Below, piece by piece: positions 34,729 through 54,561 of a DNA stretch of 57,650 nt. Numbering within the stretch: position 1 is the first letter of the stretch; every line of letters begins with the position of its first letter. The notes beneath the pieces are model-generated. The model did not search any database, was not told the DNA's origin, and saw only the letters and a program-made list of their open reading frames with translations. The stretch spans positions 1-57,650 of the forward strand of contig CAOKDX010000020.1 in NCBI GenBank assembly GCA_948467395.1, read 5' to 3'. This stretch comes from an uncultured Clostridia bacterium (lineage in GTDB: Bacteria > Bacillota > Clostridia > Lachnospirales > Lachnospiraceae). Position numbers and translations under genes: made by a program.

Positions 34729-34747
34729 AGCCTACGAAGAGAAAAAA

Positions 34748-34872
34748 ACATTTTCAGGGCGGGGTGAAATTCCCCACCGGCGGTAAAGCCCGCGAGCGGT
34801 ATCTGATTACAGCGTCCCGCTGATCTGGTGAGATTCCGGAGCCGACAGTATAGTCTGGATGGAAGAAGATGT
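34748..34872 (+). promoter_or_regulatory. FMN riboswitch (RFN element)
   Basis: The conserved RFN core is present: CAGGGCGGGGTGAAATTCCC, ACCGGCGGTAAAGCCCGCGAGC, GAGATTCCGGAGCCGACAGT and AGTCTGGATGGAAGAAG. The outer P1 helix is ACATTTTC (34748-34755) with GAAGATGT (34865-34872). FMN binding is known to favour the downstream terminator and so turn off riboflavin synthesis. The 379-bp gap between rpmB and ribD is filled by terminator, promoter and this riboswitch. Confidence 0.97.
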
Positions 34873-34912
34873 GAAAGCATTGTTCGATTTTATTCACATA
34901 AGGATTAATCAT

Positions 34913-36802: not shown

Positions 36803-38011
36803 ATGGCAGAACTGGCAACGATAGAGGAAGCACTGGAGGATATCCGGCAGGGTAAGATCATCCTTGTCATCGACGATCCGGACAGGGAAAATGAAGGGGA
36901 TCTGATCTGTGCGGCTGAGTTTGCAACGACAGAGAATGTAAATATGATGGCGACCCATGCAAAGGGACTGATCTGTATGCCCATGAGCAGCAGTCTCACA
37001 GAAAAACTTGGCCTGGATCAGATGGTGGCGGTGAATACGGATAATCATTCTACGGCTTTTACTGTTTCCATCGATCATGTGGAAACTACTACTGGTATCT
37101 CGGCAGTGGAGAGATCCCTTACGGCGATGAAATGTGTCAGTGAGGATGCGAAACCAGAAGACTTCCGGCGTCCTGGGCATATGTTTCCGCTGGAGGCACG
37201 GGAAGGCGGTGTGCTGAAACGCGCCGGGCATACAGAGGCTACAGTGGATATTATGAAGCTGGCAGGCTTGAAGGAGTGTGGTCTCTGCTGTGAGATTATG
37301 CGGGAAGACGGCACGATGATGAGGACTACTGAGCTTTTGGAGTTCGCGAAGGAACATGGACTTCGTGTGATCACCATTGAACAGCTGATCCGTAAGAGAC
37401 TGGAGAGGGAAAGCCTTGTGCGGCGTGAGGCAGAGGCGAAGCTTCCCACCAGGTTTGGAGATTTTACCATTCACGGATATGAAAATATCCTAAACGGGGA
37501 ACACCATGTGGCGCTTACTATGGGGGATATTGCGGATGGACAGCCGGTTCTGTGCCGGGTTCATTCGGAGTGCCTGACTGGAGATGTGTTTGGCTCCAAA
37601 CGATGCGACTGCGGGGAACAGCTGGAAAATGCCATGAGAATGATTGCAAGGGAGGGGCGGGGCGTGCTTCTCTACATGCGGCAGGAAGGACGTGGCATCG
37701 GCCTGATCAATAAGCTGAAGGCATATGAACTCCAGGAGCAGGGCTACGATACGGTAGAAGCAAATGTAAAGCTGGGATTTGCACCGGATCTGAGAGAATA
37801 TGGCATCGGTGCCCAGATCCTGTATGATCTGGGAGCGAGAAGGCTGCGCCTGCTCACCAACAATCCGACGAAGATCGCTGGTCTGGCCGGTTATGGGATC
37901 AGTATAGAGGAGCGTGTGCCCATCGAGATGGAGCCGCAGCCGGAGGACTATAAATATCTGGTGACGAAACAGGAAAAAATGCAGCATATGACACACTATA
38001 ATGTGAAATAA
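36803..38011 (+). CDS. ribBA: DHBP synthase / GTP cyclohydrolase II fusion
   Basis: This bifunctional protein opens both branches of riboflavin synthesis: from ribulose-5-phosphate to 3,4-dihydroxybutanone phosphate, and from GTP to the pyrimidine precursor. In the 402 residues, 1-200 are DHBP synthase ([14 protein letters not shown] near 24, [25 protein letters not shown] near 125) and 205-402 are GTP cyclohydrolase II ([20 protein letters not shown] with zinc Cys residues, then [12 protein letters not shown]). AGGAGG at 9 nt precedes the ATG. Its stop overlaps an unused ATG ahead of ribH. Confidence 0.97.
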
Positions 38012-43088: not shown

Positions 43089-43142
43089 AAACAGAGCGGC
43101 GCTGTGGCAGCAGTCCTATCGATCATTTACAGAAAGAATCAA

Positions 43143-43182
43143 CTCCCCCGCAGGGCCGGTCCGGTTATGCGGGGGAGCTTTG
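43143..43182 (+). terminator. Terminator after the chemotaxis receptor gene
   Basis: CTCCCCCGCA (43143-43152) pairs with TGCGGGGGAG (43168-43177), 10 bp, around a 15-nt loop, followed by the weak T-run CTTTGTATT. It may also serve the convergent erm gene. Confidence 0.7.
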
Positions 43183-43192
43183 TATTGGAATG

Positions 43193-43978
43193 CTATTTCA
43201 TTTTTCGATAACAATGAAATAAGCAGAGCCATTGGATGTAGAGCGTCTCACCGCCCGGCTTCAGGGGAGGAAGATTGGCCAGCCTGAGTGCTGTTCCCAC
43301 CTGCTTTTTCGTTAGGAGGCTTCTTCTGCCATATAATCCGTATTTCATGGAATGGGTAATGAACTGACGGAATTCTGATAAGTCTTTTCTGTCAAGATCT
43401 GGTTTTTGTTTTCTCGAAAGATGCAGCAGAACCGAATTGACAGACGGCATGGGATGAAAATCATTTCTTTGGAAGTGGTATAGGATCTTCATATCCCAGC
43501 CGGTTTTCAGAAGCAGGGACTGCGTCGTCTCTCTGGGACGGCCGGTGAATCTTTTGGCGGCACCCTTTTCTACAATCAGCCATAGCTCAGCTGGCGGACA
43601 GGCAGCAGCCGTCAATTTGCGGATGATCTGGGTTGTGATGAAATAGGGAATGTTGGCAAATACTTTGTAGTTCGTTACTGCTGGCAGCTGGTAATCCAGA
43701 AAATCACCCTGGATAAGTTTCAGATTTTGGCAGTCGGCTAGTCTTTCTTTTGCGTGCTGATATAATTTCCGGTCGATTTCGATGGAATACAGAAATCCGC
43801 ATTTCTGGCAGAGTGCACGGGTCAGGTGCCCTTTCCCTGTACCGATTTCGACGACGGTATCCTGCCGGGTTATGCTGCTGAGGTTTACGATGCGGTGAAG
43901 AAGTTTTCCGCTGGTGATAAAGTTCTGTGATGCGGACAGCTTTTGCAGATAATCAGATTGTTTAATTTTTTTTGACAT
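43193..43978 (-). CDS. erm: Erm-family 23S rRNA (adenine-N6)-methyltransferase
   Basis: Erm enzymes methylate A2058 of 23S rRNA, which blocks macrolides, lincosamides and streptogramin B. The 261-residue protein has the Erm N-terminus SASQNFITS (15-23), the SAM site EIGTGKGHL (44-52), IEIDR, GDFLDY, and the catalytic motif NIPYFITTQIIRKL (109-122). NIPY and the phrase FHPMPSVNSVLLHL fit Erm rather than the housekeeping dimethylase KsgA (usually NLPYY and longer). ATG 43978 has GGAGG at 5 nt. A 5' leader of about 275 nt carries a leader peptide and alternative RNA structures, the typical mark of drug-inducible erm genes. No mobile element flanks it, so it looks intrinsic. KsgA is the main alternative. 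Confidence 0.82.
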   Translation of the reverse strand: MSKKIKQSDYLQKLSASQNFITSGKLLHRIVNLSSITRQDTVVEIGTGKGHLTRALCQKCGFLYSIEIDRKLYQHAKERLADCQNLKLIQGDFLDYQLPAVTNYKVFANIPYFITTQIIRKLTAAACPPAELWLIVEKGAAKRFTGRPRETTQSLLLKTGWDMKILYHFQRNDFHPMPSVNSVLLHLSRKQKPDLDRKDLSEFRQFITHSMKYGLYGRRSLLTKKQVGTALRLANLPPLKPGGETLYIQWLCLFHCYRKMK

Positions 43979-44013
43979 ATTGCCCTCCATTTATCGTTTT
44001 TTCTATAATAAAA

Positions 44014-44178
44014 GGCAATAAAAAAATGCAGGTCTGACAGAACCGGCATCCCTAATATGAGAAATACAGCGGCATGGATAAAAAGCCGCCGGGATGGGGG
44101 TCCAGGCATGTTGAAAATAATTCGCATATTGCACGACAAAAACACACCCGTTCAGCATGGTGCATCTTTTTTATTGCC
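44014..44178 (-). promoter_or_regulatory. Putative attenuator in the erm leader RNA
   Basis: Several complementary segments lie between the leader peptide and erm. GGCAATAAAAAAGATGCA (44178-44161) can pair with TGCATTTTTTTATTGCC (44030-44014), 17 bp with one bulge. Alternatively ATGC-GGT (near 44048) pairs with ACC-GCAT (near 44028) and is followed by seven T, a plausible intrinsic terminator that uses the same bases. Also ATTCGCAT within the leader codons (44197-44190) can pair with ATGCGAAT (44127-44120). The mutually exclusive pairings suggest control by ribosome stalling; the exact path is inferred. Confidence 0.65.
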
Positions 44179-44182
44179 GGTA

Positions 44183-44209
44183 TTACCGAATGCGAATAAT
44201 GATTCCCAT
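44183..44209 (-). CDS. Erm leader peptide MGIIIRIR
   Basis: This nine-codon frame starts at ATG 44209 with TAAGGAGG 10 nt upstream, one of the best ribosome binding sites in the window, and ends at TAA (44185-44183). The peptide is MGIIIRIR. Its last three residues form Arg-Ile-Arg, an instance of the +X+ (Arg/Lys-X-Arg/Lys) motif known to arrest macrolide-bound ribosomes, as in the RLR of the ErmD and ErmK leaders. The MGI start also occurs in the ErmC leader. It begins about 46 nt after the predicted transcription start. Codons 5-7 can pair with RNA further downstream. The short length is expected for this gene type. Confidence 0.72.
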   Translation of the reverse strand: MGIIIRIR

Positions 44210-44261
44210 ATGCCGAGAACCTCCTTATCTTAATTTTGGTTCTTATATAACCTGTTCCTGT

Positions 44262-44290
44262 AGTATACCACGATATCGTATGCAAATCAA
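44262..44290 (-). promoter_or_regulatory. Sigma-A promoter of the erm leader
   Basis: On the minus strand TTGATT (44285-44290) and TATACT (44262-44267) are 17 bp apart. The spacer contains the perfect palindrome ACGATATCGT (44270-44279), a possible operator. Confidence 0.8.
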
Positions 44291-44318
44291 TACAATAAGG
44301 AGAGAGGGCTGAAAAATT

Positions 44319-44837
44319 ATGAGTAAAAAGAAAGAGAGTCTGATTGCCTGGGAGCCGGCATGGGAAGATGCCGTACAGCAGTACAAAGAAGAATTCAGGA
44401 AGGCAGGCATGGACTGGGAGGGGCTGCGGCCATATTATCCGATAGGGAAGGAGACGCTGTACTGGAAGCTGCAGAAGGATTCCCTGGCTGGCTGCAGTTC
44501 CAGCACCTATCTCTATGTGCGGGAGGAGGAAAAGCGGCTGCTGGGCATGCTGAATCTGCGCCGGGGGCAGACAGGGGAGAGCCTGGCCCGGATCGGCAAT
44601 ATCGGATTCAGCATCCGCCCCAGTGAACAGGGGAAGGGATACGCCGTGCGCATGCTCAGGGAAGCGGCTCCTCTATCCATGATGCAGGGGATCATACCAT
44701 GGTATATGGTCTGCCTGGCGGATAATGAGGCGTCCAGAAGAGTCATCGCCAGACTGGGCGGCAGAAAGCAGGGGGAGACTGTGTGGGCGGCAGGAGAACC
44801 GGCGGCGGAGAAATATGTAGTTTATGATGTTTTTTGA
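44319..44837 (+). CDS. GNAT-family N-acetyltransferase
   Basis: The 172-residue protein fits the RimJ/RimL-like GNAT fold: NIGFSIRPSEQGKGYAVRMLREA near residue 95 holds the acetyl-CoA pyrophosphate loop (RPSEQGKGYA), and CLADNEASRRVIARLGGRKQG near 130 is the conserved helix of this group. The substrate is unknown; small-molecule or protein N-acetylation are both possible. GGAGAGAGG lies upstream of the ATG. It is divergent from the erm gene and shares its control region, so a resistance role is conceivable but not shown. Confidence 0.85.
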   Translation: MSKKKESLIAWEPAWEDAVQQYKEEFRKAGMDWEGLRPYYPIGKETLYWKLQKDSLAGCSSSTYLYVREEEKRLLGMLNLRRGQTGESLARIGNIGFSIRPSEQGKGYAVRMLREAAPLSMMQGIIPWYMVCLADNEASRRVIARLGGRKQGETVWAAGEPAAEKYVVYDVF

Positions 44838-54406: not shown

Positions 54407-54416
54407 ATTAGTAGAT

Positions 54417-54561
54417 TCCATATAACTGGCGGAGAGACGTTTGCGGGAAACCGGCAAAGGTTCGTGGGAGCACCCACGGGAAGTATGGAGATGAAAGAGA
54501 GCCGACCGCCTGGGCGACCAACTGTAATTTTGGCCGTTCGGGTGATCGGCTCAATATTTTT
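54417..54561 (+). promoter_or_regulatory. ZTP riboswitch (pfl motif) with terminator
   Basis: The outer helix is TCCATA (54417-54422) with TATGGA (54484-54489), enclosing a stable CGTGGG-AGCA-CCCACG hairpin. The hallmark CCGCCTGGGC (54507-54516) of the pfl/ZTP aptamer follows. GAGCCGA (54499-54505) can pair with TCGGCTC (54546-54552), followed by AATATTTTT, to form a terminator that competes with the aptamer. ZTP, which builds up when 10-formyl-tetrahydrofolate is short, would bind and allow read-through into genes that use this cofactor. Confidence 0.93.

Follow-up and report, generated by a model that had tools for sequence, protein, structure and literature searches.

The window, i.e. the whole stretch of 57,650 nucleotides that was analysed, carries on its minus strand (43193..43978) an erm gene for a predicted 23S rRNA (adenine-2058) methyltransferase of 261 amino acids, identified from matches to the Erm model NF000499, to the RrnaAD family and to a PDB entry. 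The product narrowly passes the cut-off of NCBIfam NF000499 (216.3 bits versus 212), scores far under the respective cut-off of every named Erm class among the matches listed, and has ErmC' as its top PDB match. A second RrnaAD-family gene (219 bits), located on another contig of the genome, is likely the housekeeping KsgA. A chemotaxis-receptor-like gene and an acetyltransferase-like gene flank erm on either side, and the distribution of the gene is patchy, since it was found in 4 of 39 genomes of the genus (E up to 1e-30), the window's own genome included. All of the 1625 plasmid and 28 phage records that match erm are less than 60% identical to it, so that neither collection holds a near copy, and the search of viral contigs for close relatives returned three loci, at 36–37% identity. 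Elsewhere in the window, the plus strand carries an FMN riboswitch (34746-34874; 127.4 bits) upstream of a riboflavin-synthesis-like open reading frame (36803-38011), and a ZMP/ZTP riboswitch (54412-54522; 50.2 bits).

The region preceding erm on the minus strand starts with a promoter-like site (TTGATT-17-TATACT, with a TG before the second hexamer; 44262..44290) that agrees with the consensus at 9 of 12 positions. Taken alone it is weak, because three sites of this kind are found on the two strands of 43100-44400 against 1.9 in shuffled sequences; in 11 of the 12 clade loci described below, all but L012, similar hexamer pairs were recognized by eye ahead of the leader. The site is followed by the Shine-Dalgarno sequence TAAGGAGG (44220..44227) and by the leader open reading frame MGIIIRIR (44183..44209, with its stop codon; segment 1), in which Arg6-Ile7-Arg8 form the arrest motif, as recognized from the sequence and by comparison within the clade. 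These three elements, named in the initial annotation, are present. Segment 2, the putative antiterminator strand GGCAATAAAAAAGATGCA (44161..44178), delimited by clade comparison and duplex energy, begins 7 nt past the last Arg codon and 4 nt past the stop codon. It is followed by T1 (44138..44169), a small predicted hairpin with a U-rich 3' arm that may be an RNA polymerase pause site, and by segment 3' (44112..44127), which, from the fold and from covariation, is the partner of the leader stretch 44208-44190. Further downstream, T2 (44020..44052) is an intrinsic-terminator-like hairpin, with arms at 44052-44041 and 44034-44023 and a U-tract at 44026-44020. A terminator-type hairpin with a U-tract can be drawn in all 12 loci. 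Of the U-tract terminator initially proposed, the hairpin and its U-tract are there, but the window's copy is weak and the consensus terminator scan of the region did not call it. Segment 4 (44014..44030) comprises the 3' arm of T2, the U-tract and the motif ATTGCC and, on the evidence of covariation and duplex energy, pairs with segment 2. Finally, a stretch overlapping segment 4 (44007..44020) is predicted, from the fold of the 3' part and from covariation, to form the 5' arm of a masking hairpin, the 3' arm of which (43978..43991) includes GGAGGG as well as the A of the erm start codon. This pairing (44020-44007 with 43991-43978) would hide both the erm Shine-Dalgarno sequence and the A of the start codon. 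The heptamer GGCAATA is common to segment 2 and the erm start.

The long helix between segments 2 and 4 (2:4; 44178-44161 with TGCATTTTTTTATTGCC, 44030-44014) comprises 17 pairs and one bulged G, with a duplex energy of −17.9 kcal/mol. The best observed duplex energy was reached in 2 of 1000 controls in which segment 2 was kept fixed and the downstream sequence resampled, and in 23 of 1000 when the whole region was resampled; judged from this one sequence alone, the helix is suggestive, and no more, of a pairing beyond chance. The fold of 44236-43985 is more stable than that of shuffled sequences (z, −2.23; 5 of 200 shuffles at least as stable), and the Rfam 15 models gave no match within 43900-44320 at E values up to 5.

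Relatives of the gene were sought in 99 related genomes, in the genus, in the family (397 genomes), in the order (392 genomes) and among GTDB contigs, leading to a clade of erm genes 55–95% identical to that of the window. Twelve loci, the window counted, include the whole upstream region, and all of them carry a leader of 7–16 residues, namely MGIIIRIR (twice), MWTFIRMR, MLIARIR, MSARVFRLR, MGVCNCRKSRIQGQ (twice), MATFIRCTRTRIQGR, MGICVIRIRIQGQ, MLICIHCMIRIRIQGR, MLICVFRRIRIQGR and MGIIIRCARTRYQGQ. One further leader, MSACVGRLR, the thirteenth, is found before a fragment of erm that runs off the end of its contig. The (R/K)-X-R motif is found in each of the 12 leaders with differing codons and with Ile, Met, Leu, Ser or Thr as the middle residue, a variation that argues for selection on the peptide. 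The distance between the last Arg codon and segment 2 (GGYRRTAAAA) is 7 nt in the clade loci and 6 nt in L004. In the long-type leaders the stop codon falls inside segment 2 and the distance from the motif is the same, which argues that what has been kept is where on the RNA the ribosome stalls. Loci L042-L046, which are erm(B) by leader and identity, were kept out of the clade, and L041 and L047 were likewise dropped, as was L003, which shares a contig with L009. In L012 (genome G035) the erm gene contains an in-frame stop codon and the leader region is intact.

Covariation was evaluated with a partner-swap test, in which the duplex energy of a segment with its own partner is compared with those obtained with the partners from other loci, in 10 non-redundant loci; L009 and L006 were left out as near-duplicates, and L076, the erm gene of which is cut by the contig end, was excluded from both swap and folding tests. 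The pairing of the leader with segment 3' (1:3'; the covarying partner lies 26–40 nt after the T1 U-tract) yielded a p value of 0.00005, helix 2:4 of 0.0001, segment 4 with the erm Shine-Dalgarno region of 0.00015–0.00018, segment 4 with the coding start alone of 0.043, which is weak, and the T2 arms of 0.003, with controls at 0.94 and 0.32 and further ones at 0.40 and 0.26–0.70. When five of the mef-type leaders described below were added (15 loci), 1:3', 2:4 and the pairing of segment 4 with the gene start each gave 0.00002, the three controls being at 0.12–0.82; in this set the 1:3' entry of L102 was retained though drawn from the wrong U-tract. Other window sizes gave agreeing results. The T1 U-tract, considered as the partner of segment 2 in the OFF state, showed no covariation with it (p, 0.81), and this pairing was rejected as unsupported. 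The 17-base-pair helix that would use up the terminator U-tract was drawn correctly from the window alone, and the clade loci and covariation back the idea of an Arg-X-Arg leader combined with competing structures; the pairing of the leader with 44127-44112 and the masking of the erm start had been missed.

With the leader and its spacing found in 12 of 12 loci and three pairings that covary, the layout is beyond chance, and we regard the leader as real, conserved and very likely functional. That it senses no drug at all, erm being constitutive or otherwise controlled and the pairings relics, would agree with the promoter evidence, weak by itself, and with the weak T2 of the window, but it is very unlikely in the face of an arrest motif and a spacing that have been kept in all 12 loci despite codon changes and of the covariation of three pairings.

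The closest known system is the mef(E)/mel (mefA/msrD) attenuator of Streptococcus. That of S. pneumoniae encodes an eight-codon leader, Mef(E)L (MTASMRLR), followed six bases later by an A/U-rich 18-base repeat; a distal repeat shares sequence with the terminator, poly-U included, and is predicted to resolve it by pairing with the first repeat, and the layout is supported by published reporter, mutant and RNA-seq data (PMC4335068). The window resembles it in the eight-codon leader ending in Arg-X-Arg (PMC4335068, PMC10314930), in the A/U-rich repeat immediately after the leader, whose pairing partner, a distal repeat, includes the poly-U, and in a stem joining the leader region with later sequence; furthermore, segment 2, the T1 U-tract with its GTGC, and segment 4 are nearly identical in the two systems. 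The leader peptides are unlike, some of the erm relatives having long RIRIQG-type leaders, and mef(E)/mel controls an efflux gene, whereas the window attenuator precedes an rRNA methyltransferase gene. The gene start is, in addition, predicted to be masked in the window, and in the mef loci too segment 4 is predicted to pair with it; the portions of PMC4335068 and PMC10314930 available to us make no mention of such masking in mef(E)/mel.

The kinship was also found in searches. A leader-peptide pattern retrieved 11 contigs from IMG/VR, 7 with mef-type leaders and 4 unrelated. The seven, chosen by peptide only, contain GGCAATAAAAAA(A)GCAG, or a sequence near to it, followed by TTTTTTGTTGTGC, and the six contigs that reach far enough contain CTGCATTTTTTATTGCC, or nearly so; these sequences are almost those of the window's segments. 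A covariance model built from erm loci only (R1) recognized all seven mef-type leaders (E, 0.0003–0.0009 in 131 kb) and none of three erm(B) loci. An erm-only profile used with nhmmer also found all seven (13.6–19.2 bits; E, 2e-7 to 1e-5, in a search space of less than 3 kb, the matches being short and two of them carrying large composition corrections), and none of 350 decoys shuffled in three-base blocks was matched. Seven weak R1 matches in relatives (L077-L083; E, 0.001–0.1), five of which (L077-L081) each overlap a longer open reading frame, were taken as chance. A joint model (R2) of 13 erm-linked and 4 mef-type leaders gave 22 matches at E values up to 0.001 in the 397 family genomes: 4 precede erm genes of the window's clade, all of them from the training set, and 16, L101 among them, precede a gene for a Mef-type transporter, the other two (G217, G197) having no locus and being left out of the gene counts. 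Four of the transporters were scanned; two score above the Mef(A) cut-off, and two have Mef(A) as their best match, below it. Thus, by the R1, nhmmer and R2 results, this is an element of the mef(E)/mel kind that is used by two resistance genes unrelated to one another.

Several of these mef-type loci deserve a separate description. The leaders MLICVR and MLIFVR are devoid of the (R/K)-X-R motif. The former, which lacks Arg-X-Arg, belongs to an attenuator that precedes a Mef-like transporter gene in ten genomes of ten genera (L090-L092, L094-L100) and is identical, together with the gene start, over 400 nt, an identity across genera that suggests recent transfer. The latter is found in L102, also before a Mef-like gene, where segments 2 and 4 hold CAACAAAAAG and CTTTTTGTTG, so that, with respect to L090, both sides of the 2:4 pairing have changed. 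The mef leader of L093 lacks the sequence between T1 and the gene, T2 and segment 4 included. In L067, with no mef gene in between, the mef-type attenuator is immediately followed by a second tiny open reading frame with its own Shine-Dalgarno sequence, the product of which, MYYIFM, resembles the msrD leader MYLIFM.

On this basis the region upstream of erm is probably an attenuator of the mef(E)/mel type that responds to macrolides and controls the gene. From its parts we infer that the ribosome stalls in response to the drug and that transcripts end at T2 unless relieved by this stalling, with a translational release as a possible addition. With no drug, the ribosome would complete MGIIIRIR and depart, the leader would pair with segment 3', locking segment 2 inside, and T2 would form and halt most transcripts; in the mRNAs that result from read-through, the strand overlapping segment 4 would mask the erm Shine-Dalgarno sequence. 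With a macrolide bound, the ribosome would stall with its P site occupied by Ile7 and its A site by Arg8, covering segment 1 and ending about where segment 2 starts; the usual footprint rule places the edge of a ribosome in this position at approximately 44178-44176. Segment 2, now free, would pair with segment 4 and, because the 3' arm of T2 and its U-tract would be captured in this way, erm would be transcribed; helix 2:4 would also compete for the masking strand, so that the transcript may be better translated. Stalling with the middle residue of the R-L-R motif in the P site has been published for ErmDL (PMC8298421).

Pairings 1:3' and 2:4 are mutually exclusive unless a knot is formed, and 2:4 is incompatible with T2 and competes with the hairpin masking the erm start. 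The switch was modelled in the 12 loci on transcripts ending at segment 4 by assuming a ribosome footprint to +13, +15 or +17. In the free transcript T2 is favoured in 8 loci, and 2:4 is already favoured in the other 4 (L010, L004, L005, L006). With the footprint at +13, the value for 2:4 is at least 0.50 in all 12 loci; it exceeds 0.5 in 8 at +15 and in 5 at +17. Since four of the free RNAs already favour 2:4, the number of loci that truly pass from T2 to 2:4 is smaller, eight of the 12 at +13 and four at +15. For the window the values for 2:4 are 0.98, 0.08 and 0.00 at +13, +15 and +17, respectively, and the calculated folds are in favour of the switch only for a stalled ribosome that does not extend past +13. 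Since the partner of segment 2 is the last part of the terminator to be made, its action ahead of RNA polymerase release is a matter of kinetics, outside the reach of equilibrium folding.

These calculations also bear on a mainly translational mechanism, in which T2 would mostly be passed, control would consist in masking and exposing the erm Shine-Dalgarno sequence, and segment 2 would be a decoy imitating the erm start. Three observations would agree with it: segment 4 covaries with the gene start in both the 10 erm loci and the 15-locus set, the erm start of the window has GGCAATA in common with segment 2, and the window's T2 is weak. However, in the full-length RNA of the window the erm start is masked in both states (accessibility, 0.14 and 0.14), so that no unmasking on stalling is predicted there, of the 12 loci, five at +13 and three at +15 show an accessibility increase of at least 0.1, and the T2 arms covary too. 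We therefore consider a mainly translational mechanism unlikely, though to be kept in mind, and a transcriptional release likelier than a translational one in the window.

A different assignment of the ON and OFF states is suggested by tlrB (yxjB) of Bacillus subtilis, the leader of which, MIIQFIRYR, is also short and ends with the final Arg of an R-X-R motif, precedes an rRNA methyltransferase gene, and acts through combined transcription and translation attenuation as in the model proposed for the window (PMC6851288). In tlrB, unlike in the model for the window, it is the stalled ribosome that binds to nucleotides of the terminator base, a long-range antiterminator is not described in the available portions of PMC6851288, and the enzyme is RlmA-II, acting on G748, rather than an Erm protein. 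By analogy, helix 2:4 of the window would be the OFF structure, a long-range terminator stem with a second U-rich stretch after it, and the stalled ribosome would cover its base. The footprint rule does place the ribosome over the first 2–3 nt of segment 2, a second U-rich stretch was seen by eye after segment 4 in most of the 12 loci, and an ordinary terminator stem begins, again by eye, 6–12 nt past the last Arg codon in most of the more distant loci L051-L058. However, a stem with a loop of more than 100 nt, as 2:4 would be, is unlikely to act as an intrinsic terminator, and a local hairpin with its own U-tract, the arms of which covary, can be drawn in all 12 loci. With these considerations, an OFF role of 2:4 is quite unlikely, and the attenuator of the mef(E)/mel type, with 2:4 as the antiterminator, remains the preferred reading.

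Among leaders of erm genes, those of ErmD/ErmK (MTHSMRLRFPTLNQ and similar) share with that of the window the Arg-X-Arg arrest motif (PMC8298421, PMC4335068, PMC10314930), and erm(K) is transcriptionally attenuated, as proposed here; they are set apart, by their description, by a leader that extends past the motif. The mef(E) region has been stated to have no discernible homology to that of erm(K) beyond the leader (PMC4335068, in the portion available). The erm-like genes of L051-L059, 43–51% identical to that of the window, are preceded by R-I-R or R-L-R leaders of their own (e.g. MPMFIRLR, MIRSIRIR and MCCFIRIRK), most with a terminator-like stem soon after. R1 did not find this distant clade (best score, 16.3 bits; E, 0.15), and swap tests on L051-L058 gave p values of 0.011 for the leader with the post-terminator sequence and 0.25 for the pre-leader sequence with the Shine-Dalgarno region, so that no worked-out attenuator is claimed for these loci.

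As for novelty, eight residues with a final Arg were initially taken as unusual for an Erm leader; Mef(E)L (PMC4335068) and the tlrB leader (PMC6851288) precede the present one, so that a short leader ending with Arg is not new. The exact peptide MGIIIRIR was not found in the open-licence papers searched and may therefore be undescribed as a sequence, although its kind is known. Within the same literature, a mef-type attenuator preceding an rRNA methyltransferase (erm) gene is apparently new, and so, apparently, is a pairing between strand 4 and the gene start that covaries.

The present findings tie an erm gene to a mef(E)-type attenuator and, through covariation, provide evidence for the long-range antiterminator that has been drawn in mef(E)/mel; we know of no earlier evidence of this type. 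The natural leaders with RIR, RMR, RLR, RTR and KSR motifs, along with the motif-less MLICVR and MLIFVR, also form a set for comparing how peptide and drug cooperate in stalling. A broader reading, which we put forward tentatively and hold to be possible rather than probable, is that a single attenuator RNA family outside Rfam, spanning the bacterial family of the window and streptococcal mobile elements, controls both Erm methylation and Mef efflux as a combined transcription and translation switch, with strand 4 serving in turn as terminator arm, antiterminator partner and mask of the gene start that segment 2 imitates. If this were true, the known mef elements would also be combined switches of transcription and translation, and the erm form would show how one sensor is shared between resistance genes.
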